DNA from: Bordetella bronchialis
GTDB lineage: Bacteria; Pseudomonadota; Gammaproteobacteria; Burkholderiales; Burkholderiaceae_B
DNA: 64,000 nt
NCBI RefSeq assembly: GCF_001676705.1
Contig: NZ_CP016170.1
Coordinates: 1,116,001-1,180,000 of the forward strand
Direction of reading: 5' to 3'
Part shown: piece by piece, positions 4,864 through 64,000 of the stretch
Numbering within the stretch: position 1 is the first letter of the stretch
Layout of the letters: every line of letters begins with the position of its first letter
The notes under the pieces: model-generated
Databases searched by the model: none
What the model saw: only the letters and a program-made list of their open reading frames with translations
Told to the model about the DNA's origin: nothing
Made by a program: the position numbers and the translations under genes

Positions 4864-5202
4864 TCAGGGCCGCGTGGGCGCCGCGGCGACCTCGCCGGGA
4901 TGCTCATCCGGATGACGCTCCGGGGCTTCTTCCCCGGCCGCGGACCGCGCCAGGCTGGCGTAATGCTCGTGGGCAGCCTGTAGCGCCTGCGTAAGGTGTT
5001 CGTACAGGCGGCGCTGTTCCTCGACGAAGTCGTCGAACTTGATCTGGGCGTGCGCGTAGGACAGGCCGGTGTGCCGCAGGCTGCTGATGAACGCCGCGCG
5101 GGAGCGGCCCAGCAACTGCCAGCCGCGGTCGGCCAGGGCGAGTTGTTTTTCGAGTTCGGTGATGCGCGCGAGGGCGGCGCGCAAGTCCTGTTCAGTCGCC
5201 AT
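4864..5202 (-). CDS. Small coiled-coil protein, unknown function
   Basis: A 112-residue, cytoplasmic-looking protein. Residues about 5-30 (ALARITELEKQLALADRGW) look like a coiled coil, and the middle is helical; the C-terminal 25 residues are acidic, Pro-rich and probably disordered. No recognised family. It ends about 27 bp from the convergent lipoprotein gene and lies downstream of infA on the same strand. Confidence 0.6.
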   Translation of the reverse strand: MATEQDLRAALARITELEKQLALADRGWQLLGRSRAAFISSLRHTGLSYAHAQIKFDDFVEEQRRLYEHLTQALQAAHEHYASLARSAAGEEAPERHPDEHPGEVAAAPTRP

Positions 5203-38701: not shown

Positions 38702-39414
<713 letters not shown>

Positions 39415-51925: not shown

Positions 51926-52375
51926 ATGAAGTTCGCCGATTTCAAGCAGGGCATGGTGATCCATGCCGGTCCGGTCACGGTCACGGAAGCCGAGATCCTG
52001 GAATTCGCCCGCAAATACGACCCGCAGTGGTTCCATACCGACGTCAAGCGCGCCAACGAAGGGCGCTGGGGCGGGCTGATCGCCAGCGGGTGGCACACCT
52101 GCGCCATGGCGATGCGCATGGCCGTGGATACGGCGCTGCACGATTCCGAGTCCTTCGGATCCCCCGGCCTGGGGGAAGTCCGCTGGCGCGTGCCGGTGCG
52201 TCCCGGCGACCGGCTGCGGCTGGAAGCGCGCGTGCACGGCGTGCGCAGTTCCTCGTCGCGCAACGACCTGGGCATCATCAACTGGGCCTGGGTCGTCTAC
52301 AACCAGCACGACGAAGCGGTGCTGGAGCTGGACGCGACCAGCCTGTTCGACCTGGGCGAGGATCCCGCCGCTTGA
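51926..52375 (+). CDS. MaoC-like hot-dog dehydratase
   Basis: A 149-residue single hot-dog domain. FADFKQGMVIHAGPVTVTEAEILEFARKYDPQWFHTD, then GLIASGWHTCAMAMRM, is the MaoC hydratase 2 signature; the Asp and His of the dyad are in the YDPQWFHTD segment. It may hydrate an enoyl-CoA from the ring-cleavage product, but similar proteins act in many pathways. It follows boxA by 85 bp on the same strand. The stop overlaps a possible TTG start of the next gene. Confidence 0.88.
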   Translation: MKFADFKQGMVIHAGPVTVTEAEILEFARKYDPQWFHTDVKRANEGRWGGLIASGWHTCAMAMRMAVDTALHDSESFGSPGLGEVRWRVPVRPGDRLRLEARVHGVRSSSSRNDLGIINWAWVVYNQHDEAVLELDATSLFDLGEDPAA

Positions 52376-53211
52376 AGCCCAAGCGCGCCGCACGCCCCGC
52401 CGCCGGCCTGGTCCTGGCCGTCCTGCCGCTTGCCTGCGTGCCCCCCGCGCTGGGGGCGCCGGCCGCGCCGGGCGAAAACTACACCTTGCGCCAGGCGCTC
52501 ACCGCCTGGGACATGCTGGCCAAGGTCGATGTGCTTTGCCCGGATGGCGACGGCGACCGGCAGGCGCGGCGCCTCGATGAACTGGAAGCCGTCGCCACGC
52601 AGCGCCTGAAACTGTCCGCCAAGGCCATGCTGGAAAAGCTGGCCGAAGAAGTGCCCCCGGTGCTGATGACCGCCGAACAGGCGGTTCGGGTGGTAGCCAA
52701 CGCCGGCGGCTGCAAGACCGAGGCCCTGGCGCAATGGCGCGGACGGGCCGCCTTCGTCGCGGACACGTCGCGCCAGGTGCTGGCGGGCGAGGCGCGCGCC
52801 GACCGGCAGTGGCCGCGCGACGCCGCCCTGGAGCGGCCGCTGCGGATCACGGTGTCGGGCCAGCGCGGCGATCCCATGCATGGCAGCGGCGTCTCGCTGC
52901 GTGTGGAGAACCGCGCGGCCAGGCCCGTCCGATTCGCCTTGCTCGGTCCACAGACTTTCGTCGGCCTGTGCACGCGGCTGTCCATCAGCGGCGTGCCGGT
53001 GGAACAAGGCTATGCGCCGCGCGAGTGGCTGACCTTGCCGGGCCGCGGCGACGCCACGGTGTCGCTGGTCCGCGATCCCTCCTGCTTGCGGCCGCCACCC
53101 GGCCGCGTCAACGTCGGTGGCGTGGTCGCGGTCGATGCGGGTGGCGGCGCGCGATATTGGCGTTTCCTGGTGCGCGGCGTGGGCGCCGCGCCGGCGGGCC
53201 TCAAGCCCTGA
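52372..53211 (+). CDS. Exported protein of unknown function, TTG start
   Basis: A 279-residue protein with a clear signal peptide (KPKRAARPAAGLVLAVLPLA, then cleavage near ALG-APA). The only start that keeps this signal is TTG 52372, whose TGA overlap with the MaoC stop implies coupled translation. The body has four cysteines in pairs (VLCPDG, GGCKTE, GLCTRL, PSCLRP) and a beta-rich C-terminal half with RPVRFALLGPQTFVG and PREWLTLPGRGDATVSL. No family recognised; probably periplasmic. Confidence 0.65.
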   Translation: MKPKRAARPAAGLVLAVLPLACVPPALGAPAAPGENYTLRQALTAWDMLAKVDVLCPDGDGDRQARRLDELEAVATQRLKLSAKAMLEKLAEEVPPVLMTAEQAVRVVANAGGCKTEALAQWRGRAAFVADTSRQVLAGEARADRQWPRDAALERPLRITVSGQRGDPMHGSGVSLRVENRAARPVRFALLGPQTFVGLCTRLSISGVPVEQGYAPREWLTLPGRGDATVSLVRDPSCLRPPPGRVNVGGVVAVDAGGGARYWRFLVRGVGAAPAGLKP

Positions 53212-53282
53212 CCCCCTCTCGCATGCGATAGCGCCGCGGATGTCGCCGAAGGCATCGGCATCCCACGTCAATGCGCAAAACG

Positions 53283-53331
53283 CGAACTGGCAGTTCTGCC
53301 AGTTCGTATTACATCGGCCCCTCCATAGAAT
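53283..53331 (+). promoter_or_regulatory. Lux-box promoter upstream of the 53.4-kb gene
   Basis: AACTGGCAGTTCTGCCAGTT (53285-53304) is a perfect 20-bp inverted repeat, extended by one base on each side (53284 and 53305) and again to C/G at 53283/53306. It has the CTG-N10-CAG form of LuxR-type quorum-sensing operators. TAGAAT (53326-53331; five of six to consensus) is centred 34 bp downstream of the box centre, so the box falls at about -43, the standard activation position. Transcription would start near 53338. Confidence 0.75.
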
Positions 53332-53423
53332 GAACGCCAAGACAGGCGGCGCGTGCCGCTTGGCCGCAACCCGGGACCAGCCGCATGCCCGGAACGAAGC
53401 CGTACCGTCGCCAGGAGATAGAA

Positions 53424-54803
53424 ATGGCCGATTCGATCATGCCACCCACCGGATGCTCGATGGGCTTGAGAGCCCCGATGCTTTTCACGTTCACCTACGA
53501 TCCGCCCAGTCCCACCGACCCGAAGAACATACCCGTCACGTTCCAGAGTTCCGATGCCAATGTCACGTTCGACCAGGTCATGCCGGTGACCACGGACGTG
53601 AACACGGGGCAGGTCGCCGTCGTCGTGACATACACGGGCGATACCGATGGGGTTGTCGTCCCGCTGGAAGTGGTGGACCCGGCAACCCTGGCGCCGTATG
53701 TCTCGGCTACCTACACCACCACCTGGGTGAATACCGGCAATCTGGTCGTCAGCCCCAATGCCGTTCCCGTCGCCCCGGATGCCGCCGACCTGGGCCTCCC
53801 CGCCTACACGATCACCGCCACCGCGCAGTTCACCAGCCGTGGGTCGACACAGCTGAAGTACTACCCGATCGGCGTCGAGGTGGTCGGCAACATCAATGTG
53901 TACGACAAGAACGGAAACATACAGGTCGTCTCCCCGGACGGGCTTTACTGGTTCTACAGCGGCCCGCTGGGCGAGGCCATCGAATTCAAGCTCTCCTCGC
54001 TGTACGAGGGCATTTTCCTGGTCGCCATCAAGTACGGGACGGGCAACCTGGCGGACAACGAACACGTGGTGTTCCTGCCGGAACTGGTAGGCGGGGATGG
54101 CAATCAATTCAATCTGTGGTCGCCGCTCAACCTGGATGCGTATAACGGTGCGCTGCTCACGACCACCGTGGTGGGCAACCTGGACGTGACGGGCAAGATA
54201 GGCCAGCCGACCGTCGCCCTGGTGAACGGCAAGCTCGCGAGCGCGGTCGAGGCCTACGAGGCACTGGTCCAGGGCTTCGATATCCAGAAGCAGGCCTTCG
54301 TCGGTGCATCGAACTACGTCATCAGCTGGATGACCACCGAAACAGGCGCCAGCCTCAGGACGACCCAGTCCAACACGGTGAATCCGGAGTCGGTCACGGG
54401 CAACACCTGGCTGCATCCGCCGACCGATGGCAAGCTCGCCCGGCCTTATACGATCGGCCTGTCCAGCATCAACACCAGTGTGCTGCTGAAGGGCGACCCG
54501 TCGGTCTACATCCCCGACCTGGCAACGGGCGACGAGGTCACGCTCGTCTACTTCCTGAACGGCTATGACCCCCTGGACACGGACAGATCGAAAGCCGCCA
54601 GCTTCAAGTTGCAGGTGACAGCGACGCAGAACGGCACCAATGTCGCGAAGATTCCGGCGGGCAATCTGTCGGGGTACGCGGCCCATGGCCGGGAGGCGGG
54701 CACTTTCGAGTGCTATTACTACAAGGGTTTCGGCGACGCGCCGAGGGATCCGACGCTGTATTCCGCGCCCTTGACGCCGATTCTCCAGCTCGTGACCGCC
54801 TGA
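53424..54803 (+). CDS. Beta-rich protein of unknown family, lux-box controlled
   Basis: A 459-residue protein with no signal peptide (MADSIMPPTGCSMGLRAPML). ATG 53424 has AGGAG upstream. The sequence is rich in Thr, Val, Asn and Asp with alternating hydrophobic residues, as in tandem beta-sandwich domains. Repeated themes such as GDEVTLVYFLNGYDPL and VTGNTWLHPP reappear in the 57.2-kb protein (GDTVVMSLYLNGLFPQ, VTGNTFLTY), so the two are probably distant relatives. Gly/Asn-rich turns and only two or three Cys suggest an extracellular destination, but no export signal is seen. No known family. Confidence 0.7.
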   Translation: MADSIMPPTGCSMGLRAPMLFTFTYDPPSPTDPKNIPVTFQSSDANVTFDQVMPVTTDVNTGQVAVVVTYTGDTDGVVVPLEVVDPATLAPYVSATYTTTWVNTGNLVVSPNAVPVAPDAADLGLPAYTITATAQFTSRGSTQLKYYPIGVEVVGNINVYDKNGNIQVVSPDGLYWFYSGPLGEAIEFKLSSLYEGIFLVAIKYGTGNLADNEHVVFLPELVGGDGNQFNLWSPLNLDAYNGALLTTTVVGNLDVTGKIGQPTVALVNGKLASAVEAYEALVQGFDIQKQAFVGASNYVISWMTTETGASLRTTQSNTVNPESVTGNTWLHPPTDGKLARPYTIGLSSINTSVLLKGDPSVYIPDLATGDEVTLVYFLNGYDPLDTDRSKAASFKLQVTATQNGTNVAKIPAGNLSGYAAHGREAGTFECYYYKGFGDAPRDPTLYSAPLTPILQLVTA

Positions 54804-54812
54804 CGGCACAGG

Positions 54813-54843
54813 GCCGGCCGGCACGCGACGCGCGCCGGCCGGC
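54813..54843 (+). terminator. Hairpin after the 53.4-kb gene
   Basis: GCCGGCCGGC (54813-54822) and GCCGGCCGGC (54834-54843) pair perfectly with an 11-nt loop. No U-run. It may end the lux-box transcript or only partially reduce read-through. Confidence 0.5.
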
Positions 54844-54884
54844 TTGCATCCGTCAGGACTCTTGACCAGACGCGATGGTCGAAC

Positions 54885-54900
54885 ACCGGGCTTGCCCGGT
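54885..54900 (+). promoter_or_regulatory. Short inverted repeat in the leader of the Hint-domain gene
   Basis: ACCGGGC-TT-GCCCGGT: a 7-bp perfect inverted repeat with a 2-bp spacer, 17 bp before the ATG and directly before the GGGAG ribosome binding site. Could be an operator or RNA hairpin. It does not have lux-box form. Confidence 0.3.
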
Positions 54901-54917
54901 CCGGGAGATATCCGAGT

Positions 54918-56717
54918 ATGCGTAATGTTCTGTCGATAGCGGTCGGCACGGCATGCATGACGATGCTGGCGTTGGCGCCGTTCCAGGTGGCGGGAGCGCC
55001 TGCCTTTCATAAACCGAACGCCGCGGACGATCGCGCGATCCGGGCCGACGTGGACAGCACGCCCAACACGGGCCTGCCGGTGGCCTGCGACGCCAGCGGG
55101 GAAGAAGCCCGGCGCGCCCTGCTGCGGATGTGGGGGCGCGATGCCCAGCGCTATCCGGCGGCCTATCGCACGCTGGAAACGCTGAAGGCGCGCGGCTGGA
55201 AGTTTCCCGATATGACGTCTACCGGCAAGCCCGGCCGCTATGGCATGACGCATGCGCCGGACGATTTCGCCATCATCCACGTCACGTCGACCGCGCCTCT
55301 GTTCACGAACGTGACCGCGCTGTCATTCAGCAGCATGTTCGTGAACGATACGGACCTGGACAAGTTCGAGATCCAGACCGTCAACATCTACACGAAGGAC
55401 GCCGCCGGCCTGGCCGAGACGCTGATCGCTTCCGGCACGAACTCCGACGACGAAAGCATGCGCAATATGCCGGTCGTGACCCAGTCGGTGGTCGCGGGAA
55501 ACAACAATCCCAATAAAGCCAACGTCATCACGTACACGAATTACTTCGGGGAGGCGGGCGGCCAGCCCTTCTGCTGGAATGTCCGCATGGATCGCGACGC
55601 TTCCGCCGGCCCCCTGAGCGTGGCGATGCTGGATCCCACCCCCGCGCCCGGCCATCCGCCGCCGCAGGACGGTGTCCCGGACAGGACGATCATTTGCCTG
55701 AATCGCGCCGTGGCGGATACGAATGGCGAGTTCTGCGACTACGGGCCGTCCCAGCCGGGGGTGCTGAACGACGACTTGGACCTGCTGTTTCCCTTCGCGG
55801 GCACCATAACGATCGCCAACGCGATCTACACGATGACGGGAACCGACGGGCGTACCATCCCCGCCATCCCCAGCGGCAAGGACAAGACCCCCGGGAAACT
55901 CCGCGTCAAGCTGGTCAGGGTAGAGGGTGGCGCCTGCGATGCCAGTTTCGACATCGATCCGCCATGGAAAGGCTTCAATGTCCTCGGCAATAAGCTCCAG
56001 TGGCAGTTCTCCAATCCGCAGGACCGCAAGGATTCTTCCCAGTTTCTCGACGCCGGCAAGATATCGACCTGCACCGACCTGGATCCGGCGGATATCCAGG
56101 ATTGGTACATGATCGCCATGTTCTTCGACGAGCGGAACGGCAGTCCCTACCATCCGGTCTCGATCGGTCTGGGTTCGCTGAAAACCTTCGACGGATTCGA
56201 CGCCAACAAGCAGCTGCCGCCGGTGGGCTACCAATGGGGATGCGTGATAGAAGGCACCCCGGTTGCGCTGGCCGACGGCCGGACCGTGCCCATTGAAACG
56301 CTCAAGGCCGGGGATCTGCTGCTGGGTCCCTCGGGAAAAAGCGTGCGGCTGAGCGGAATCAGCCCCGGCCGCGACAAGAAGTTCATCAAGCTCGTGGACG
56401 CGGCCGGCGAGTCGGTGGTGGTCACGCTCGACCATCCGGTGCTGACGAAGACAGGCATGCGCCGCGCGCGGGATCTGCGCGCCGGAGACACCGTGTACGG
56501 CCGCAATGGTCCTTCCATACTGCGCGAGGTGCTCGCGGACAATCGCGACACGCCGGTCCGCGTATACAGCGTGCACCTGGCGACCAGCGACGGCGGGCGC
56601 ATCGCGGATACCAACGATCGCGCTTTCTATGCCGGAGCGATCCTGGTGGGCGACTACGCCGCGCAAGGCGCCGCCATGCGGCAGGCGGCGAACGAAAGAA
56701 TGCATGGCAAGAACTGA
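54918..56717 (+). CDS. Exported protein with C-terminal Hint (intein/hedgehog-type) domain
   Basis: A 599-residue protein. Signal peptide about 1-27 (MRNVLSIAVGTACMTMLALA, cleavage near VAGA). Residues about 30-450 are an unfamiliar beta-rich region with paired cysteines. From about residue 449 a Hint domain starts exactly at Cys in YQWG-CVIEGTPVALADGRTVPIETLKAGDLLLG; block B is VVVTLDHPVLT (Thr and His), and FYAGAILVGDYAAQ near the end matches the last Hint strand. Only about 20 residues follow, so there is no C-extein to ligate. Autocleavage or transfer at the Gly-Cys bond is the expected activity. GGGAG precedes the ATG. Confidence 0.8.
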   Translation: MRNVLSIAVGTACMTMLALAPFQVAGAPAFHKPNAADDRAIRADVDSTPNTGLPVACDASGEEARRALLRMWGRDAQRYPAAYRTLETLKARGWKFPDMTSTGKPGRYGMTHAPDDFAIIHVTSTAPLFTNVTALSFSSMFVNDTDLDKFEIQTVNIYTKDAAGLAETLIASGTNSDDESMRNMPVVTQSVVAGNNNPNKANVITYTNYFGEAGGQPFCWNVRMDRDASAGPLSVAMLDPTPAPGHPPPQDGVPDRTIICLNRAVADTNGEFCDYGPSQPGVLNDDLDLLFPFAGTITIANAIYTMTGTDGRTIPAIPSGKDKTPGKLRVKLVRVEGGACDASFDIDPPWKGFNVLGNKLQWQFSNPQDRKDSSQFLDAGKISTCTDLDPADIQDWYMIAMFFDERNGSPYHPVSIGLGSLKTFDGFDANKQLPPVGYQWGCVIEGTPVALADGRTVPIETLKAGDLLLGPSGKSVRLSGISPGRDKKFIKLVDAAGESVVVTLDHPVLTKTGMRRARDLRAGDTVYGRNGPSILREVLADNRDTPVRVYSVHLATSDGGRIADTNDRAFYAGAILVGDYAAQGAAMRQAANERMHGKN

Positions 56718-56718
56718 G

Positions 56719-56752
56719 CGGCCCGGCCCGGCCCGGATCGCGGGCCGGCCGC
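56719..56752 (+). terminator. Hairpin after the Hint-domain gene
   Basis: GCGGCCCGGCCCG (56719-56731) pairs with CGGGCCGGCCGC (56741-56752) with a one-base bulge. No U-run. It separates the Hint gene from the small gene downstream. Confidence 0.45.
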
Positions 56753-56791
56753 TAGCCGAATTTCGCTGTATCTGCGTGGACGGAACCAACC

Positions 56792-57088
56792 ATGGCTTAT
56801 CCGATAAATCTCAAGACGGCCACCTACGATCCCGCGGGCATCGTCAGCGCGACCTGGGATCTGCTGACCCTGGCGGGCAACGTCGGCTTCTGGGTGCGTA
56901 TCGATTGGCCCAACGGATACAACGCCTTTTTCGTCCGGGATCCCGCCGCGATCTCCGTGTCGCTGCCCATGCAGCTGGACCGCCAGTACGCGTACACCGT
57001 GACCTTGTACGGCCTGCAGGATGACGACGACGTGAACCAAAACGTTTATTCCGCCACTGTACATATCTTCGGCTGGCCCCCCGCGTAG
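56792..57088 (+). CDS. 98-residue beta-rich protein, unknown function
   Basis: MAYPINLKTATYDPAGIVSA... with VGFWVRIDWPNGYNAFFV and YTVTLYGLQDDDDV: aromatic and beta-strand-rich, resembling a single beta-sandwich domain. No signal peptide, no Cys. A weak GGA is the only ribosome binding site candidate, so translation strength is doubtful. Same orientation as the neighbouring unknown proteins, and the amino-acid style is similar to theirs. No family recognised. Confidence 0.6.
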   Translation: MAYPINLKTATYDPAGIVSATWDLLTLAGNVGFWVRIDWPNGYNAFFVRDPAAISVSLPMQLDRQYAYTVTLYGLQDDDDVNQNVYSATVHIFGWPPA

Positions 57089-57140
57089 CGGATCCGGCGG
57101 CCATGCGGGGCGTGTGCCACATGGCGTGTGGCGTGCGCGG

Positions 57141-57172
57141 TGGTGCAGTGGTGCAGTGGTGCAGTGGTGCGG
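57141..57172 (+). repeat. Octanucleotide tandem repeat upstream of the 57.2-kb gene
   Basis: TGGTGCAG three times (57141-57164) followed by TGGTGCGG (57165-57172). It lies 60-90 bp before the ATG at 57232. An in-frame ATG at 57103 would place it inside the coding sequence, where a change of one unit would shift the frame. Confidence 0.85.
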
Positions 57173-57231
57173 AAGCGGTGCGCCGATGGCGTGGCAGTGG
57201 CGCGGTACGAACCCATTCTCAGGTGACGCTC

Positions 57232-58668
57232 ATGAACGTCCAGTTCAACAATCCAGGCCCCGATACCCAACTGATCGTCGGCACCGTCAATACGCTGAAA
57301 ATCCTGGTAAGCGGCATAACCGGCACCTCTGTCTCGTGGTCGGTGATCCCCGTGGCGTCGCTGGCGGGCGCCAAGACGGGCACCGCCACCGTCCAGGGCG
57401 GACAGGCCAGCTTCAGCTTCGGCATCAAGAGCCGGCCGGGCACCGATAGCCAATTCATGGTCCTGGTTTCCGTCTGGGATACCGAGGCGCCCGACGCCGG
57501 CCACTGCACGGCCTTGTATCGCTGCGCCCGGCCGCGCATGCAATACAGCATCAGCCGCACTTATGGCGAAACCGCGGACCCGCAGGTGTCGCCCTTCGAT
57601 CCCAATGATCCGGACCCGGACCAGGTGATGATGGTCACGCTTTGGTTGAGCGACGCGGACGAGGGAACCCCCCTGAACAACAACAAGGTGACATGGCGCG
57701 GCCATCCGGCCAATCCCACCTATGTGCTGACGGCAGATAACAAGGACCCGCAGCTGGATCCCGCCGACGTGACGGGCAATACCTTCCTGACGTATACGGA
57801 TCCCACCGGTCGCGCCGCGCTGAAATTCGCCAATACCGCGCCGTCCATCGTGCTGATGTCCGCCACCTGGGGAGGCGTCACGACGCGGGCCTTCCCGCTG
57901 ACTTTTTCCGCCCTGGGCACGCCCTGGATCGACGCCGGGGTCCAGGTGCCGGAAATAACCGATCCCGTGAACCTCGACGATTACGACGATGCGGGCGTTC
58001 CCATCACCATCAACGCCGATGCCACCCTGACGTGGATGCAGAACGGCGCCCAGATCTACGTGGGCTGCTGGCTGAACGGCATCATGACCGATGCCTACAA
58101 GCTCAAGGTGGGCGACACCATCAAGATCCCGAAGCGGTACTTCATGTCCCTGGAGGCGACTGAAAAGACACCGAACGTCGTGGCCTATACGGTGGTGCCC
58201 GCCGTCAGCGCCAACGGGGAAGACTCCAATTACCTGCCGGTGAACGTGCTCGGTACCGTGCCGCCGGCCGCGCCGCAGCGTCCCAGCGGCGCATTGAAGG
58301 GCCTGCCGCCGTATCTCCCGGGCAAGCCGGCGACGGTGACGCCCGATATCATCGCGGGCGGCTTGCAGGTCTTCGTCCCGCAGTCCTACACCGCCTTCCA
58401 GCCCGGCGACACGGTCGTCATGAGCCTGTACCTGAACGGCCTGTTCCCCCAGACCGGCAACCCCCGGATCGTCACCCTTTCCAGTCCCGAATACGCCATA
58501 CCCGTCGATGAACAGTGGGGAGACTTTTCCTTCGTGTTCTCCGAGAACCAGCTGAGCGGCTTCGACGGCGCGAATGCCACGCTGGTGGCGCAGTACGAAG
58601 TGCGGCGCAGCGGCGTCTCCATCTGGTCCGACACCTTGACCGTCGCGCTGGCGACGGCTGCGCCGTGA
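57232..58668 (+). CDS. Beta-rich protein of unknown family, relative of the 53.4-kb protein
   Basis: A 478-residue protein (MNVQFNNPGPDTQLIVGTVN) with no signal peptide at this start. AGGTGA lies 6-11 bases upstream of ATG 57232. The sequence suggests three or four immunoglobulin-like beta-sandwich domains, with VTGNTFLTYTDPTGRAALKFA resembling Big-type adhesin repeats. Segments GDTVVMSLYLNGLF and VTGNTFL echo the 459-residue protein at 53.4 kb. An alternative start at 57103 would run through the octanucleotide repeat. No known family. Confidence 0.7.
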   Translation: MNVQFNNPGPDTQLIVGTVNTLKILVSGITGTSVSWSVIPVASLAGAKTGTATVQGGQASFSFGIKSRPGTDSQFMVLVSVWDTEAPDAGHCTALYRCARPRMQYSISRTYGETADPQVSPFDPNDPDPDQVMMVTLWLSDADEGTPLNNNKVTWRGHPANPTYVLTADNKDPQLDPADVTGNTFLTYTDPTGRAALKFANTAPSIVLMSATWGGVTTRAFPLTFSALGTPWIDAGVQVPEITDPVNLDDYDDAGVPITINADATLTWMQNGAQIYVGCWLNGIMTDAYKLKVGDTIKIPKRYFMSLEATEKTPNVVAYTVVPAVSANGEDSNYLPVNVLGTVPPAAPQRPSGALKGLPPYLPGKPATVTPDIIAGGLQVFVPQSYTAFQPGDTVVMSLYLNGLFPQTGNPRIVTLSSPEYAIPVDEQWGDFSFVFSENQLSGFDGANATLVAQYEVRRSGVSIWSDTLTVALATAAP

Positions 58669-58760
58669 TGATGGATCGCGCGACGCCCATGTGTACACCC
58701 ATACGAATTTTCTTATTCAACGTCGCGCGACGGCAATCTAACCTCGTGCGCTTCGAGAAG

Positions 58761-58774
58761 TTTCGTTTAAGAAA
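58761..58774 (+). promoter_or_regulatory. Candidate BvgA-type inverted heptad upstream of the autotransporter
   Basis: TTTCGTT (58761-58767) directly abuts TAAGAAA (58768-58774). The second heptad reads TTTCTTA on the other strand, an exact fit to the BvgA consensus TTTCYTA; the first fits at five of seven. Adjacent inverted heptads are the high-affinity BvgA site in Bordetella. It lies 43-56 bp before the ATG. No convincing -10 follows, so this is tentative. Confidence 0.35.
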
Positions 58775-58816
58775 ATTCCGACAAGGGTGTCGGGTTCACA
58801 TGGACGGCGTACAGGG

Positions 58817-61800
58817 ATGAATCGCATCTATCGTTTGATACGGAACAGGAAAACCGGCCAGCTGGTGGCGGCATCGGAAATCGCGAAGGGCAATCCGTCA
58901 TCGGACGGCGGGCGGTCGGCCTGCGTGGCCGGCGCATCCTCCCGTCGTCGCATCGCTGGGGGATCGGCCTGGCTGGGCGGGACCGCGGCAGTCCTGGTGT
59001 TCATGTCGAATTCCGCCTATGCCGCCTGCGGCCCCACGCAAACGGCCAGCCTGGCCGTCGGCCAGAGCGTCGAGACCTGCAACGATGCGGAGGCCGGGCT
59101 GCTGGCCGACGGGGCGACCTTGACGGCGCCCGGCAACAACACCATCCTGACACATGGCCTGGGCTCGGATGGCGTGGTCGCGCAGAACGGCGCCAACGTC
59201 AATCTGGTGGGCACCAGCGTCACCGTCGAAGGCAATGGGTCGAATGCCGTGAACGTGTCCGGCGCCTCTACCGTCACCATGGATGCCAATACGGTATTGA
59301 ACGTCCACGGCAACGGCGGAACGGGATTGGGGAATGCCATCTCGGGCATACGCCTGCGCGGTGGCCCGGGGCAGTCCAGCACCCTGAACATCACGGGTAC
59401 GCAGGTCTTTACCACGGGCACCAACGCCCTGGGCGCCGACCTGCAGGGTGTGCTGCAGAATCTCAACATCCAGGGCGCGGGTTTCACCACCACCGGCGAC
59501 CAGTCGGTCGGGGTACTGCTGACCGCCAGCGGCACCTCCACGCTCACCAACACTGCGATCCAGACCTCGGGCGCGGGCGCCACCGGGCTTCTGGTCGGCG
59601 GCGGCAGTGGCACGATCGTCAATTTCAACGGCGGATCCATCGGCGTGGCCGGCCCGTCCATCGGCGCACAGGTGGTCAGCTCGTCCAGCCTGACCTTGAA
59701 CGGCGCCACTATCAATGCCACGGGCACGGGCTCCACCGGCCTTTCCGTCGAGAGCGGCGCCAGCCTGACCCTGGGCAACACCACGCCGTTGACCGTGAAT
59801 GCGACGGGCAGCGGCGCCGTCGGCCTGGCGATCGGTTCGGCCACCACCGCGGGCACGGCCACGCTGGCCGACGCCACCATTTCGGCCGGCGCGAACGCCA
59901 GCGACGCGGTACGCCTCAATTCAGCGGGCAGCAGCGTCACTTTTGGCCCCAACACGCTGATCCAGGCAGCGGGCGCCGGCGCGCACGGCATCGTGGTCGG
60001 CAACGGGGCGGTGGTCACCTTCGATCCGACGGCCGCGCCCGGCACGACAACGCTGCCCCGGATCAGCGTGACGGGCGACGGCGGCGCGGCGATCGATGTC
60101 AACGGCGCCAACAGCCGTGTCAACTTCAACAATGTCACCCTCGACGCGACGCAGACGGCCTCGCTCAATCTGGGCGCGAATTCCTGGGGCATCCTGGCGG
60201 AGAATGGCGGCGTGGCGGTGGTGGACGGCACGACGTCGTTGAACAGCGTGGGAATCTGGGCCAGGGGCTCGGGCCCGGCCGCGGTGGGCACCATCCAGTT
60301 CAGGCCCAACGCCACCGTCGCCAATGTGGCCGCCCGCGTGGACGACTATGGCCAGCTGGATATCAGCCCGCGGACCAACGGCAGCACGTTTACGCTGGAT
60401 TCCCTGGAAGGCGGCGGAACGGCCGGTACCGGGGAAGTCCTGATGGGACCCGTCAACCTGCAGATCGCAGGCGCGGCGCAGACCACGTATGCCGGCCGCC
60501 TGACTGGCAACGGAGACCTGACGCGCAGCGGGACCGGCAGCCTCACCCTGACCGGCGCCAATGCCCTGGCCGGTTTCAGCGGCACCGCCCACATCCAGGA
60601 CACGGCCACGCTGGGCTTGGCCGGGGCGGCGCAGGGCACGGGCGTGGCCTTCGATTTCTCCACGGCGGGCGCCACGCTGGATATCTCCGGGTCGACCGCC
60701 TTGTCGGGCGTGCAGGTGGGCCGCATCAACAGCCTGGCGAGCGGAAACGGCACGATCCAACTGGGCGCGAACAACCTGACCGTGTCCTCTGCCCTGGATT
60801 CCGATTTCAGCGGCACGATCCAGGACGCCGCCGGCGCCGGCCGGCTGACCAAGGCCGGCACGGGTACGCTGACGCTGTCGGGCCCCAATGTGTTCGGCTT
60901 CGGTGCCGCGACAGGCGGTGGAGTCCTGGTACAGGACGGGACGCTGGCGGTCGGCGGCCAGGCCAATGCCAGCCAGAGAACCTTCAACGTGACGGGCCCC
61001 GGCGTCCTGGACGTGTCCGCGGTATCGAACGCGCAAGGCAATTTCAACGTAGGCATGATCTCCGGCGACGGCACGATCAACCTGGGCGCCAACTCGCTGA
61101 CCGTCGACGGCGTGAATAATCTGGACGGCACCAGCACCGGGACCTTCTCCGGCACCCTGACCGGCGGCAATGCCGCGGGCATGGGCCTGATCAAGCAAGG
61201 CGCGGGCACGCTGATCCTGTCCGGCAATAACGCCTTCGGCTATGCCGGCGGGACCGATATCGCGTCCGGCGTGCTGGCGATACGCAATGTGGCGCCCGGC
61301 ACGTTCACCAAGACCTTCACCCTGGATGGCGGCTGGCTGGATCTGTCGGACGTCGGACCGCCGAACGAGACCCTGGCCAACAACTGGCCCGGCATCACCC
61401 TGAACCAGGGCGCGAATGCCAGCCAGGGCGGCGTCATCGGCGCGGATGACAACATGACCTACAACGTCGCCGCGGGCGCGACGCAGACGGTGGCCTATCA
61501 CCTGGGCGACGGCACGACGCCCAATGGCCAGGGCATCTTCGTGGTCAAGCAGGGCGCCGGCACGCTGGAACTGACGGGCGACAACAACTATGTGGGCAAT
61601 ACGCGCATCGAGGGCGGCACGCTGCGGGTCACCAGCGACCGCAATCTGGGCGATACGACGGCCGCCCGCGAAGTCGTGCTGGATGGCGGCGGCCTGGACA
61701 TCGGCGGCAGCTTCGTGTCGGGGCGCAATATCGAACTGCGCGCGGCCGGCGCGGTCAACGTCGAAAGCGGGCAGGACACGACCTGGCGCGCCGCGGTCGA

Positions 61801-63769
61801 CAATGGCGCGGGCTATACCCTGACCAAGAACGGCGCCGGGCGGCTGGCTTTCAGCGGCGCCAGCCAGCTGGGCGGCGTAATCGCGAATGCCGGCACGCTG
61901 GACATGGGCGCCGCCACCGTGGACAGCACGGCGGCCGGCACCGCCGCCGTCGCGGTCCATGGCAGTACGGTCGGATTCGCCGGCGGCACCATCGGCAGCG
62001 CGGACGATGCCATCGTTTCGGACGGTTCCAGCGTCGTCAATCTGTCCAACACCACCTTGAACGCCGCTGCCGGCAAGTCGCTGTACCGGGTGGCCAGCGG
62101 GCAGGGCACGCTCAACGCGAACGGGCAGATATTGTCCGGCGACTTGCGGGCCGACGCGGGCGCCGCCCTGACCTTGAATCTGAATGGCGGAAGCGTCTAC
62201 ACCGGCACCCCGTCGCTGGGCGATGCTTCCAGCACCGCGGCGATCAATGTCAACGATGCGTCCAGCACGTGGAACGTCACCGCCGATACCACCCTGGCCA
62301 GCCTGGGCAATGCCGGGACGGTCGCGTTCGGCGCGCCGGTCAATGGCGCCTATAAATCCGTGACGGTAAACGGCGATTACCAGGGCGGCGGCACGGTGGC
62401 GATGAACACCGTCCTGAATACCGGCGGTGCGCTGGGCAATCAAAGCACCGATCGCCTGTTGATCAAGGGCAATGCGACGGGGACGACGACCCTGCAACTG
62501 CAGACGACCGGGACGGGCGCCAATACGAATACGGCGCTCAACAACCTTCCCGTTCCCACCGAGGGCATTTCGCTGGTCCAGGTCGCGGGTAATTCGTCCG
62601 CCAATGCATTCACGCTGGCGGGCGGCTATGTCGCGGCCAATGGCAGCCCCTACCAGTATCGGCTGTTCGCCTACGGGCCCGGGCAGGCCGCGGCCTCGCA
62701 ATCCATGCTCGGCGCCGCGCCCCTGAATTGGGATTACCGCTTGCAGACCGCGTATCTGGATCCCAACGGCAATCCGGTGCCCGGCATGCCGCCGGGCGGG
62801 CAGGGCGGCGGCGGACGTCCCGCCATCGTCGCGCAGGCCAGCTCCGAACTCGTCGCGCCCCTGGCGCTGCAGAACTACGGCGCCACGGTCATGGGAAGCC
62901 TGAATCGCCGCCTGGGCGAAATCCGGGGCCAGGACATCCCCCCGCCGGACAACCGCGCGGAGATGTTCAGCCGCGTCATCGCCGCCAGCAGCAGCTACCG
63001 GTCCAGCCGCGACTTCGACGACTACGGCTACGATTTCCACCAGGACATCCAGGCCATGCAGATCGGCGGCAACTGGCTGCATCTGCGCGACCAGGACCAG
63101 AACCTGCGCCTGGGCGCGGCGGTGACCATCGGCTCGACCTCGGTCCGGCCCAAGACCCAGGACGCGGAGTCCAGCAAGTTCAGGCTGGATGCGCGCAGCG
63201 TGGCGCTGACCGCCACATGGCAGCACAAGAGCGGCTGGTACGTCGATGGCGTGCTGTCGGCCGGTACCTTCAACGGCGACGTGAAAACCGACAAGAGCAG
63301 CGAGGCCAGCAAGATCAAGGGCAATAGCCTGGAGGCCTCCGTCGAAACCGGCAAGGCCTTCGCGCTGGACAACGGCTTCGTGGTGGAGCCCCAGTTGCAG
63401 TTGATGAGTCAGACCTTCCGCTTCGATGACCACACGGACGTGGACGGCGTGCACACCGACTGGGACACCAACACCTTCTTTACCGCGCGGGGCGGCGTCA
63501 AGGTATCCATCCCGGTTCCGTCAGCGCCCCAATGGAAACCCTATGTGGCGGCGAACCTGCTGCAAACGTGGGGTGGCGACAACGATGTCAAGCTGGCCGA
63601 TACCTCGTTCACGCCGGGCAAGGTCGGCACCGCCGTGCAATTGCAAGTGGGGGCGACGGGGCGCCTTACCCCCAACCTGTCGGTGTATGGCGAACTGGCG
63701 GGACAGCAGCGGCTTGGACATGGCACGAGTTCGGTCTATGGCAACGTCGGAATCCGCTACCTGTTCTGA
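58817..63769 (+). CDS. Large ESPR-type autotransporter adhesin
   Basis: A type V secreted surface protein of 1,650 residues. It begins with an extended signal peptide region (ESPR): MNRIYRLIRNRKTGQLVAAS, then a hydrophobic stretch and AYA-AC cleavage near residue 69. The passenger (about 70-1370) is a long beta-helix made of imperfect GSGxNAVNVSGAST and GxGTLTLSGxN repeats; several of the latter match passenger-associated transport repeats, which aid secretion. The C-terminal 280 residues are a 12-strand beta-barrel (RAEMFSRVIAASSSYRSS to SVYGNVGIRYLF, ending in Phe as outer-membrane proteins do). The pertactin-type barrel fits Bordetella. ATG 58817 is chosen because it starts the ESPR. Confidence 0.93.
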   Translation: MNRIYRLIRNRKTGQLVAASEIAKGNPSSDGGRSACVAGASSRRRIAGGSAWLGGTAAVLVFMSNSAYAACGPTQTASLAVGQSVETCNDAEAGLLADGATLTAPGNNTILTHGLGSDGVVAQNGANVNLVGTSVTVEGNGSNAVNVSGASTVTMDANTVLNVHGNGGTGLGNAISGIRLRGGPGQSSTLNITGTQVFTTGTNALGADLQGVLQNLNIQGAGFTTTGDQSVGVLLTASGTSTLTNTAIQTSGAGATGLLVGGGSGTIVNFNGGSIGVAGPSIGAQVVSSSSLTLNGATINATGTGSTGLSVESGASLTLGNTTPLTVNATGSGAVGLAIGSATTAGTATLADATISAGANASDAVRLNSAGSSVTFGPNTLIQAAGAGAHGIVVGNGAVVTFDPTAAPGTTTLPRISVTGDGGAAIDVNGANSRVNFNNVTLDATQTASLNLGANSWGILAENGGVAVVDGTTSLNSVGIWARGSGPAAVGTIQFRPNATVANVAARVDDYGQLDISPRTNGSTFTLDSLEGGGTAGTGEVLMGPVNLQIAGAAQTTYAGRLTGNGDLTRSGTGSLTLTGANALAGFSGTAHIQDTATLGLAGAAQGTGVAFDFSTAGATLDISGSTALSGVQVGRINSLASGNGTIQLGANNLTVSSALDSDFSGTIQDAAGAGRLTKAGTGTLTLSGPNVFGFGAATGGGVLVQDGTLAVGGQANASQRTFNVTGPGVLDVSAVSNAQGNFNVGMISGDGTINLGANSLTVDGVNNLDGTSTGTFSGTLTGGNAAGMGLIKQGAGTLILSGNNAFGYAGGTDIASGVLAIRNVAPGTFTKTFTLDGGWLDLSDVGPPNETLANNWPGITLNQGANASQGGVIGADDNMTYNVAAGATQTVAYHLGDGTTPNGQGIFVVKQGAGTLELTGDNNYVGNTRIEGGTLRVTSDRNLGDTTAAREVVLDGGGLDIGGSFVSGRNIELRAAGAVNVESGQDTTWRAAVDNGAGYTLTKNGAGRLAFSGASQLGGVIANAGTLDMGAATVDSTAAGTAAVAVHGSTVGFAGGTIGSADDAIVSDGSSVVNLSNTTLNAAAGKSLYRVASGQGTLNANGQILSGDLRADAGAALTLNLNGGSVYTGTPSLGDASSTAAINVNDASSTWNVTADTTLASLGNAGTVAFGAPVNGAYKSVTVNGDYQGGGTVAMNTVLNTGGALGNQSTDRLLIKGNATGTTTLQLQTTGTGANTNTALNNLPVPTEGISLVQVAGNSSANAFTLAGGYVAANGSPYQYRLFAYGPGQAAASQSMLGAAPLNWDYRLQTAYLDPNGNPVPGMPPGGQGGGGRPAIVAQASSELVAPLALQNYGATVMGSLNRRLGEIRGQDIPPPDNRAEMFSRVIAASSSYRSSRDFDDYGYDFHQDIQAMQIGGNWLHLRDQDQNLRLGAAVTIGSTSVRPKTQDAESSKFRLDARSVALTATWQHKSGWYVDGVLSAGTFNGDVKTDKSSEASKIKGNSLEASVETGKAFALDNGFVVEPQLQLMSQTFRFDDHTDVDGVHTDWDTNTFFTARGGVKVSIPVPSAPQWKPYVAANLLQTWGGDNDVKLADTSFTPGKVGTAVQLQVGATGRLTPNLSVYGELAGQQRLGHGTSSVYGNVGIRYLF

Positions 63770-63775
63770 CGACCG

Positions 63776-64000
63776 CTACAGCAGCCCGAGAATGGCCGCC
63801 TTCAGCGCGGCCGACGTCCGGTTGGCGGCCGCCAGTTTCTGCAGGATTTTCTCCATGTGGAAATTCACGGTCCGTTCGGACAAATGCATGATCCGCCCGA
63901 TGGCGACCGATGTCTTGCCATCGGCGGTCAAGCGCAATATGTCGATTTCCCGTTCCGAAAGACCGGTCGTGGCTTCCGGCATGTATTTCGGCACCAGCAG
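63776..64000 (-). CDS. LuxR-type quorum-sensing regulator (partial, C-terminal DNA-binding domain)
   Basis: Only the last 75 residues are in the window; the gene continues past the right edge. LSEREIDILRLTADGKTSVAIG, then HLSERTVNFHMEKILQKLAAANRTSAALKAAILGLL, is the GerE/LuxR helix-turn-helix. The GKTS..IG, SERTVNFH and ANRTSAALKAA features are those of acyl-homoserine-lactone-responsive LuxR proteins rather than response regulators. Convergent with the autotransporter, only 6 bp apart. The ligand-binding domain and any luxI gene would lie outside. Confidence 0.8.
   Translation of the reverse strand: MLVPKYMPEATTGLSEREIDILRLTADGKTSVAIGRIMHLSERTVNFHMEKILQKLAAANRTSAALKAAILGLL

Follow-up and report, generated by a model that had tools for sequence, protein, structure and literature searches.

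Does a long inverted repeat in front of a group of genes in Bordetella bronchialis serve as the operator of a quorum-sensing regulator, and if so, which genes would respond to it? The repeat lies in the window analyzed here, that is, the whole stretch of 64,000 nucleotides, and the features of the locus are collected in Table 1. The dyad is a probable new LuxR-type promoter element, and the genes behind it are poorly known. More specifically, we consider it fairly probable that an AHL-responsive activator of the LuxR type, most likely encoded by the gene at the right edge of the window, uses 53283-53306 as its operator and switches on gene 1. A quorum-regulated exported-protein system, as suggested in the preliminary description of this DNA, is possible but unproven.

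The sequenced strains of B. bronchialis come from cystic fibrosis patients (PMC5064114). Judged from the listings, the open-licence literature yielded nothing on quorum sensing in this group of Bordetella. The open-licence papers naming B. bronchialis or Bordetella flabilis contain zero occurrences of "quorum sensing", and among the further matches listed no title names Bordetella.

Table 1. Features of the locus, with positions counted from the first nucleotide of the window
Feature	Positions	Strand	Remarks
Candidate lux box dyad, CGAACTGGCAG-TT-CTGCCAGTTCG	53283..53306	.	Probable LuxR-type operator
-35 position at 17-bp spacer, TTCGTA	53303..53308	+	3/6 to TTGACA; overlapped by the dyad
-10 hexamer, TAGAAT	53326..53331	+	5/6 to consensus
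Gene 1, 459 aa	53424..54803	+	Directly behind the box; neither a Pfam/NCBIfam family nor a signal peptide
Strong hairpin at the end of gene 1	54799..54857	+	Possible terminator or attenuator; no T run
Gene 2, 599 aa	54918..56717	+	N-terminal signal peptide pattern; C-terminal Hint domain from C442
Gene 3, 98 aa	56792..57088	+	No family match
Gene 4, 478 aa	57232..58668	+	No family match; weak relationship to gene 1 in the C-terminal part
Gene 5, classical autotransporter	58817..63769	+	ESPR signal, PATR repeats, beta-barrel
AHL-type LuxR regulator gene, C-terminal 74 codons	63776..64000	-	Continues past the window; may encode the regulator of the box

The dyad and its promoter geometry

The dyad consists of two perfect 11-bp arms separated by a 2-nt spacer (TT), 24 bp in all. 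Its inner 20-mer (53285-53304) has the form CTG-N10-CAG and is paired at 9 of 10 positions. It had been described as a perfect 20-bp dyad. The CTG-N10-CAG dyad is present and its symmetry reaches as far as 24 bp, but the 20-mer falls one pair short of perfect, its central TT being unpaired. Seven CTG-N10-CAG sites occur in the 64-kb window, and the runners-up have 6 of 10 pairs. In 200 first-order Markov sequences, sites with at least 9 of 10 pairs are expected 0.04 times per 64 kb. The bare pattern is rarer than expected in the window (7 observed versus a mean of 17.9 in shuffles).

The window is richer in long dyads of any kind than the random model predicts, since palindromes with arms of at least 11 and gaps of 0-10 number 5 versus 0.625 expected (40 simulations). 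When the gap is exactly 2, two are found (53283-53306 and 38756-38779) versus 0.025 expected (40 simulations). The palindrome at 38756-38779, GGCGTCCTGGCAAGCCAGGACGCC, likewise has 11-bp arms and a 2-nt gap and is not of the CTG-N10-CAG form. A scan of viral contigs for both arms with any two central bases returned one stretch, within the short open frame 4865-5161. It was taken as chance.

The dyad is located in the intergenic stretch 53212-53423 between the end of the upstream gene (53211) and gene 1, about 70 nt 3' of the upstream stop codon. This upstream gene (52354-53211, with the start codon chosen by us) has no Pfam match at E 0.1 and stands behind a MaoC-like gene. The genes before it presumably belong to a box (benzoyl-CoA) pathway.

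The center of the dyad (53294.5) is 34.0 bp from the center of TAGAAT (53328.5), a layout that matches the class II activation distance of LuxR. The preliminary description had named this distance and this geometry, and the measurement agrees with both. TTCGTA is poor as a -35 element. A sigma-70 scan requiring both hexamers found no promoter in 53100-58900. Hexamers with at least 5/6 identity to TATAAT and with A2 and T6 occupy 16 of the 63,995 + strand positions in the window, so the chance of such a -10 at 33-35 bp from the dyad is about 0.00075 by arithmetic done after the site was seen. The layout is that of an activator standing in for the -35 element, as in activator-dependent LuxR promoters, and a transcript start is predicted near 53338. 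The dyads of LuxR homologues are reported to overlap the -35 element in general (PMC1766932).

The LuxR-type gene at the right edge

The edge gene lies 10.5 kb from the box, and its N-terminal part, where an autoinducer-binding domain would be expected, falls past position 64000. Its GerE helix-turn-helix (HTH) domain matched Pfam at 7.6e-19, above cut-off. Among solved structures, the HTH matched a designed RhlR variant (1.5e-14), QscR (3.8e-12), SdiA (1e-11), and native RhlR (3.4e-11). CviR (3.6e-9) stands near the best response-regulator HTH (5.6e-9), and LasR (6.1e-7) ranks below the latter. The domain had been called an AHL-type LuxR DNA-binding domain from the start, and this assignment is upheld, with the RhlR variant, QscR, and SdiA all ahead of the best response regulator. 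In NCBIfam, the matches were SdiA (3.8e-14), the MadR response regulator (2.5e-13), and NarL (1.7e-8), none of them above cut-off; taken alone, this library separates the AHL type from the response regulator type less clearly.

Matches in the plasmid collection point in the same direction as the structures. Among the best 20 of 792 records, those from Sulfuriferula and Burkholderia have the lowest E-values, with 46-50% identity. Six of these 20 are annotated as autoinducer-binding, four are unannotated, and ten are Deinococcus response regulators, whose E-values are weaker (6e-11). One of the unannotated records among these best 20 of 792 is a Burkholderia multivorans LuxR that is 50% identical to the edge HTH. 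An autoinducer-binding domain is recognized in it (3.2e-35), and one short open frame separates its gene from an autoinducer synthase gene (luxI). We take this pair to be CepR/CepI. Furthermore, the alignment of three Burkholderia and Sulfuriferula LuxRs with the edge gene starts at their residue 163 or 164 and takes in the linker; the Deinococcus matches begin at residue 7 of the edge-gene query. From these sequence comparisons, we conclude that the HTH is best assigned to the AHL type rather than the NarL type, and a NarL-type regulator at the right edge was rejected. A luxI gene was sought in the 64-kb window by tblastn with two LuxI queries, and none was found (best E 0.28).

Genes behind the dyad

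How far would control by the box extend? The hairpin at the end of gene 1 is exceptionally stable (z -5.40; 0/200 shuffles equally stable). The hairpin after gene 2 is GC-rich and not unusual (z -1.57; 14/200 shuffles equally stable). Thus, of the hairpins that the preliminary description placed after the first and second genes, the one after gene 1 is strong and the one after gene 2 does not stand out. The hairpin after gene 1 probably lowers or ends the transcript, and therefore control of genes 2-4 by the box is uncertain. Given its strength, gene 1 would be the main target of the box, which supports the earlier warning that nothing beyond the first gene may be under its control.

Neither Pfam nor NCBIfam gives a match at E 0.1 for genes 1, 3, and 4, in line with the view that the run consists of unfamiliar genes. 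The structure model of gene 1 is all-beta with a mean pLDDT of 50.8 (low confidence), and that of gene 4 is mostly beta with a mean pLDDT of 62.4, the two together spanning low to medium confidence. Compared with known structures, the models of genes 1 and 4 resemble only generic strings of Ig/FnIII-like domains, in each case with query-normalized TM-scores of at most 0.22 among the 50 matches listed. No function was read from the models. The C-terminal parts of genes 4 and 1 align in hhalign with an E-value of 1e-4 and a probability of 58%.

Among genes 1-4, N-terminal hydropathy and residue pattern, a crude test rather than a trained predictor, indicated a signal peptide in gene 2 only. The products had been proposed to be surface or secreted proteins. 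This fits gene 2, with its signal peptide pattern, and the autotransporter gene 5, but not genes 1, 3, and 4, for which this test indicated no signal peptide. Genes 1-4 (53424-58668) have a GC content of 0.606-0.642 versus 0.68 for the window, and their GC3 is slightly below that of the preceding genes. The gap between genes 3 and 4 holds an 8-bp tandem repeat, GTGGTGCA, in 3.9 perfect copies (57140-57170), which is possibly length-variable.

The Hint domain of gene 2 resembles bacterial intein-like (BIL)/Hint domains. A profile of gene 2 and its relatives matched the solved structure of the bacterial intein-like domain 2lwy at 6.8e-7 over profile positions 442-555, and all matches of gene 2 in Pfam and NCBIfam were below cut-off. 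The cysteine and the TxxH motif (C442, T503, H506) are invariant in 9/9 aligned sequences and in 6/6 in the alignment with Tistrella and Pseudoalteromonas. The end of the domain differs. Inteins have a terminal HN motif. In gene 2, GD (G578, D579) is found where inteins end, in 9/9 sequences and in 6/6 with the distant relatives. An intein proper was therefore rejected, and protein splicing is unlikely because the terminal His-Asn is absent. The domain may instead cleave itself or pass its substrate to a different nucleophile.

In the plasmid collection, gene 2 matched five records, all at less than 60% identity. Three of them, from Pseudoalteromonas, cover approximately residues 195-579, and those from Tistrella and Embleya cover the Hint part only. 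A Hint lineage with GD in place of HN is common to Bordetella (54918-56717), Tistrella, and Pseudoalteromonas (the non-Bordetella loci being L005 7326-9308 and L006 6867-8612). These GD-type Hint genes each time adjoin large uncharacterized genes. Around three of the five plasmid matches, four stretches (L005-L008, of which L006 and L008 overlap) were searched for genes 1, 3, and 4, which were unmatched but for one 28-bit match to gene 1.

Gene 5 matched three Pfam families, all above cut-off (PF13018, 4.5e-11; PF12951, 2.1e-19; PF03797, 7.5e-35). It is probably a separate transcription unit, since it has its own upstream region with a lower GC content (52%). Upstream of this gene are a TTTCTTA at 58709-58715 and an inverted pair, TTTCGTT-TAAGAAA, at 58761-58774, which to our eye resemble BvgA heptads. 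TTTCYTA occurs five times in the window versus 1.2 expected, a count that 2/100 shuffles reach, and two of the five are upstream of gene 5. These motifs raise the prospect that the gene 5 promoter may be Bvg-controlled.

Relatives were compared as proteins only, in searches of 5.8 billion proteins, in each of which scoring was confined to the 7,995 candidates with the most words in common. Gene 1 has six relatives, gene 2 eight, and gene 4 eight, the last count including the window's own protein. The organism is named in 6/22 rows and is Bordetella every time. The gene 4 protein has a record of 100% identity, and that of gene 2 has a B. bronchialis counterpart with 94% identity. Genes 1, 2, and 4 tend to travel together, since 4/6 gene-1 relatives apparently lie on one contig with gene 2 or 4 when the length of the longest contig is taken as a proxy. 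Contigs of 13,060 and 42,545 bases apparently carry all three. For B. flabilis, genes 1 and 4 are among the matches and gene 2 is not among them. Pattern scans of the genome-contig collection gave 64 matches for gene 1 and 18 for gene 2, none of them confirmed. In viral contigs, such scans gave 71 matches for gene 1, 24 for gene 2, and 16 for gene 4, again with none confirmed. Genes 1, 3, and 4 had no match in the plasmid collection.

Alternative readings and comparison with known LuxR boxes

In the reading that we favor, an AHL-bound LuxR dimer would sit on the dyad, covering the poor -35 position. It would contact RNA polymerase at the TAGAAT -10 (class II activation), with transcription starting near the predicted site. 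Gene 1 would be switched on, and genes 2-4 would receive weaker read-through. What is made would be proteins restricted to the lineage, some with Ig-like beta domains and one an exported Hint protein, and their functions would presumably lie at the surface or in the community.

Many regulator families bind dyads with arms of 9-11 bp, and a dimeric regulator from a different family, such as the TetR or MarR type, could have its operator in the dyad, whose likeness to a lux box would then be fortuitous. The lack of enrichment of bare CTG-N10-CAG in the window and the non-adjacent position of the LuxR gene speak for this. We nevertheless regard it as unlikely, in view of the coincidence of the CTG-N10-CAG ends, the 34 bp to the -10, the poor -35, and an AHL-type LuxR within 11 kb. 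It is distinctly unlikely, in our estimate, that the dyad is a true LuxR-type box that is bound by another LuxR of the genome or acts in repression, in which case no linked quorum-activated unit would be formed by the edge gene and the island. The distance of the edge LuxR from the box suits such a reading, but this gene is the only LuxR-type gene seen nearby, and the poor -35 suits activation better than repression. Repression by LuxR from a promoter box has been reported for ainS (PMC5601948).

The dyad might also act at the RNA level, as a hairpin at which the transcript of the upstream gene is terminated or processed. The RNA of a 51-nt piece with the dyad folds at -18.6 kcal/mol (z -4.09; 1/200 shuffles equally stable), and it would follow the upstream stop codon by some 70 nt. 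However, a terminator needs neither CTG-N10-CAG nor a set distance to a -10, and the terminator scan did not list the dyad. We consider a function of this kind very improbable. A T-run terminator in particular was rejected, since no T run follows the dyad.

An extended version of the LuxR-operator reading is quite improbable and is put forward as speculation. The locus could be a module found solely in the B. bronchialis/flabilis/sputigena group and controlled by quorum sensing or eavesdropping, in which LuxR would turn on Ig-domain proteins. The co-conserved exported Hint protein has the acyl-shift cysteine and TxxH without the intein HN. By way of a thioester, it would then cut itself or become joined to the Ig proteins or some other molecule, much as in hedgehog-type processing. 

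The near-symmetric box and the AHL-type LuxR about 10 kb away make a directly testable target. If the favored LuxR-operator reading is true, an uncharacterized, lineage-restricted gene set would be tied to the signals of the cell's own kind or of neighboring bacteria.

Dyads of this quality were also sought at the plasmid loci of the LuxRs closest to the edge HTH. No site with at least 8 pairs was found beside luxI or luxR in the loci of B. multivorans (L001) and Sulfuriferula (L002), or beside luxR in that of Burkholderia stagnalis (L003). Sites of 8-9 pairs exist elsewhere in these loci. When at least 6 pairs were required, the Sulfuriferula locus had one site of 7 pairs upstream of luxI (4879), the B. 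multivorans locus none, and the B. stagnalis locus two of 6 pairs downstream of luxR. A near-perfect dyad is therefore not general for such LuxRs.

Among described systems, the cep box at cepI of Burkholderia cenocepacia (CepR) is likewise an inverted repeat overlapping the -35, and its 24-bp repeat is needed for expression: changes of 4 bp within it lower expression below 20% (PMC1766932). The Bordetella box matches 11/18 bases of the cep box consensus. The cepI box is an imperfect dyad, whereas the Bordetella box has perfect 11-bp arms and no luxI seen beside it or in the window. The afe-box of Acidithiobacillus ferrooxidans (AfeR), a 20-mer (PMC3759942), is alike in its 9-bp arms around two unpaired bases and its overlap with the -35. 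It differs in that it precedes the synthase gene afeI and forms the middle of a 30-bp palindrome, and 12/20 of its positions are equal to those of the Bordetella box. Finally, the las/rhl-type sites of Pseudomonas aeruginosa (LasR, RhlR) differ in genes and organism but have CT-N12-AG in common with the Bordetella box, the form reported for RhlR sites (PMC9241726).
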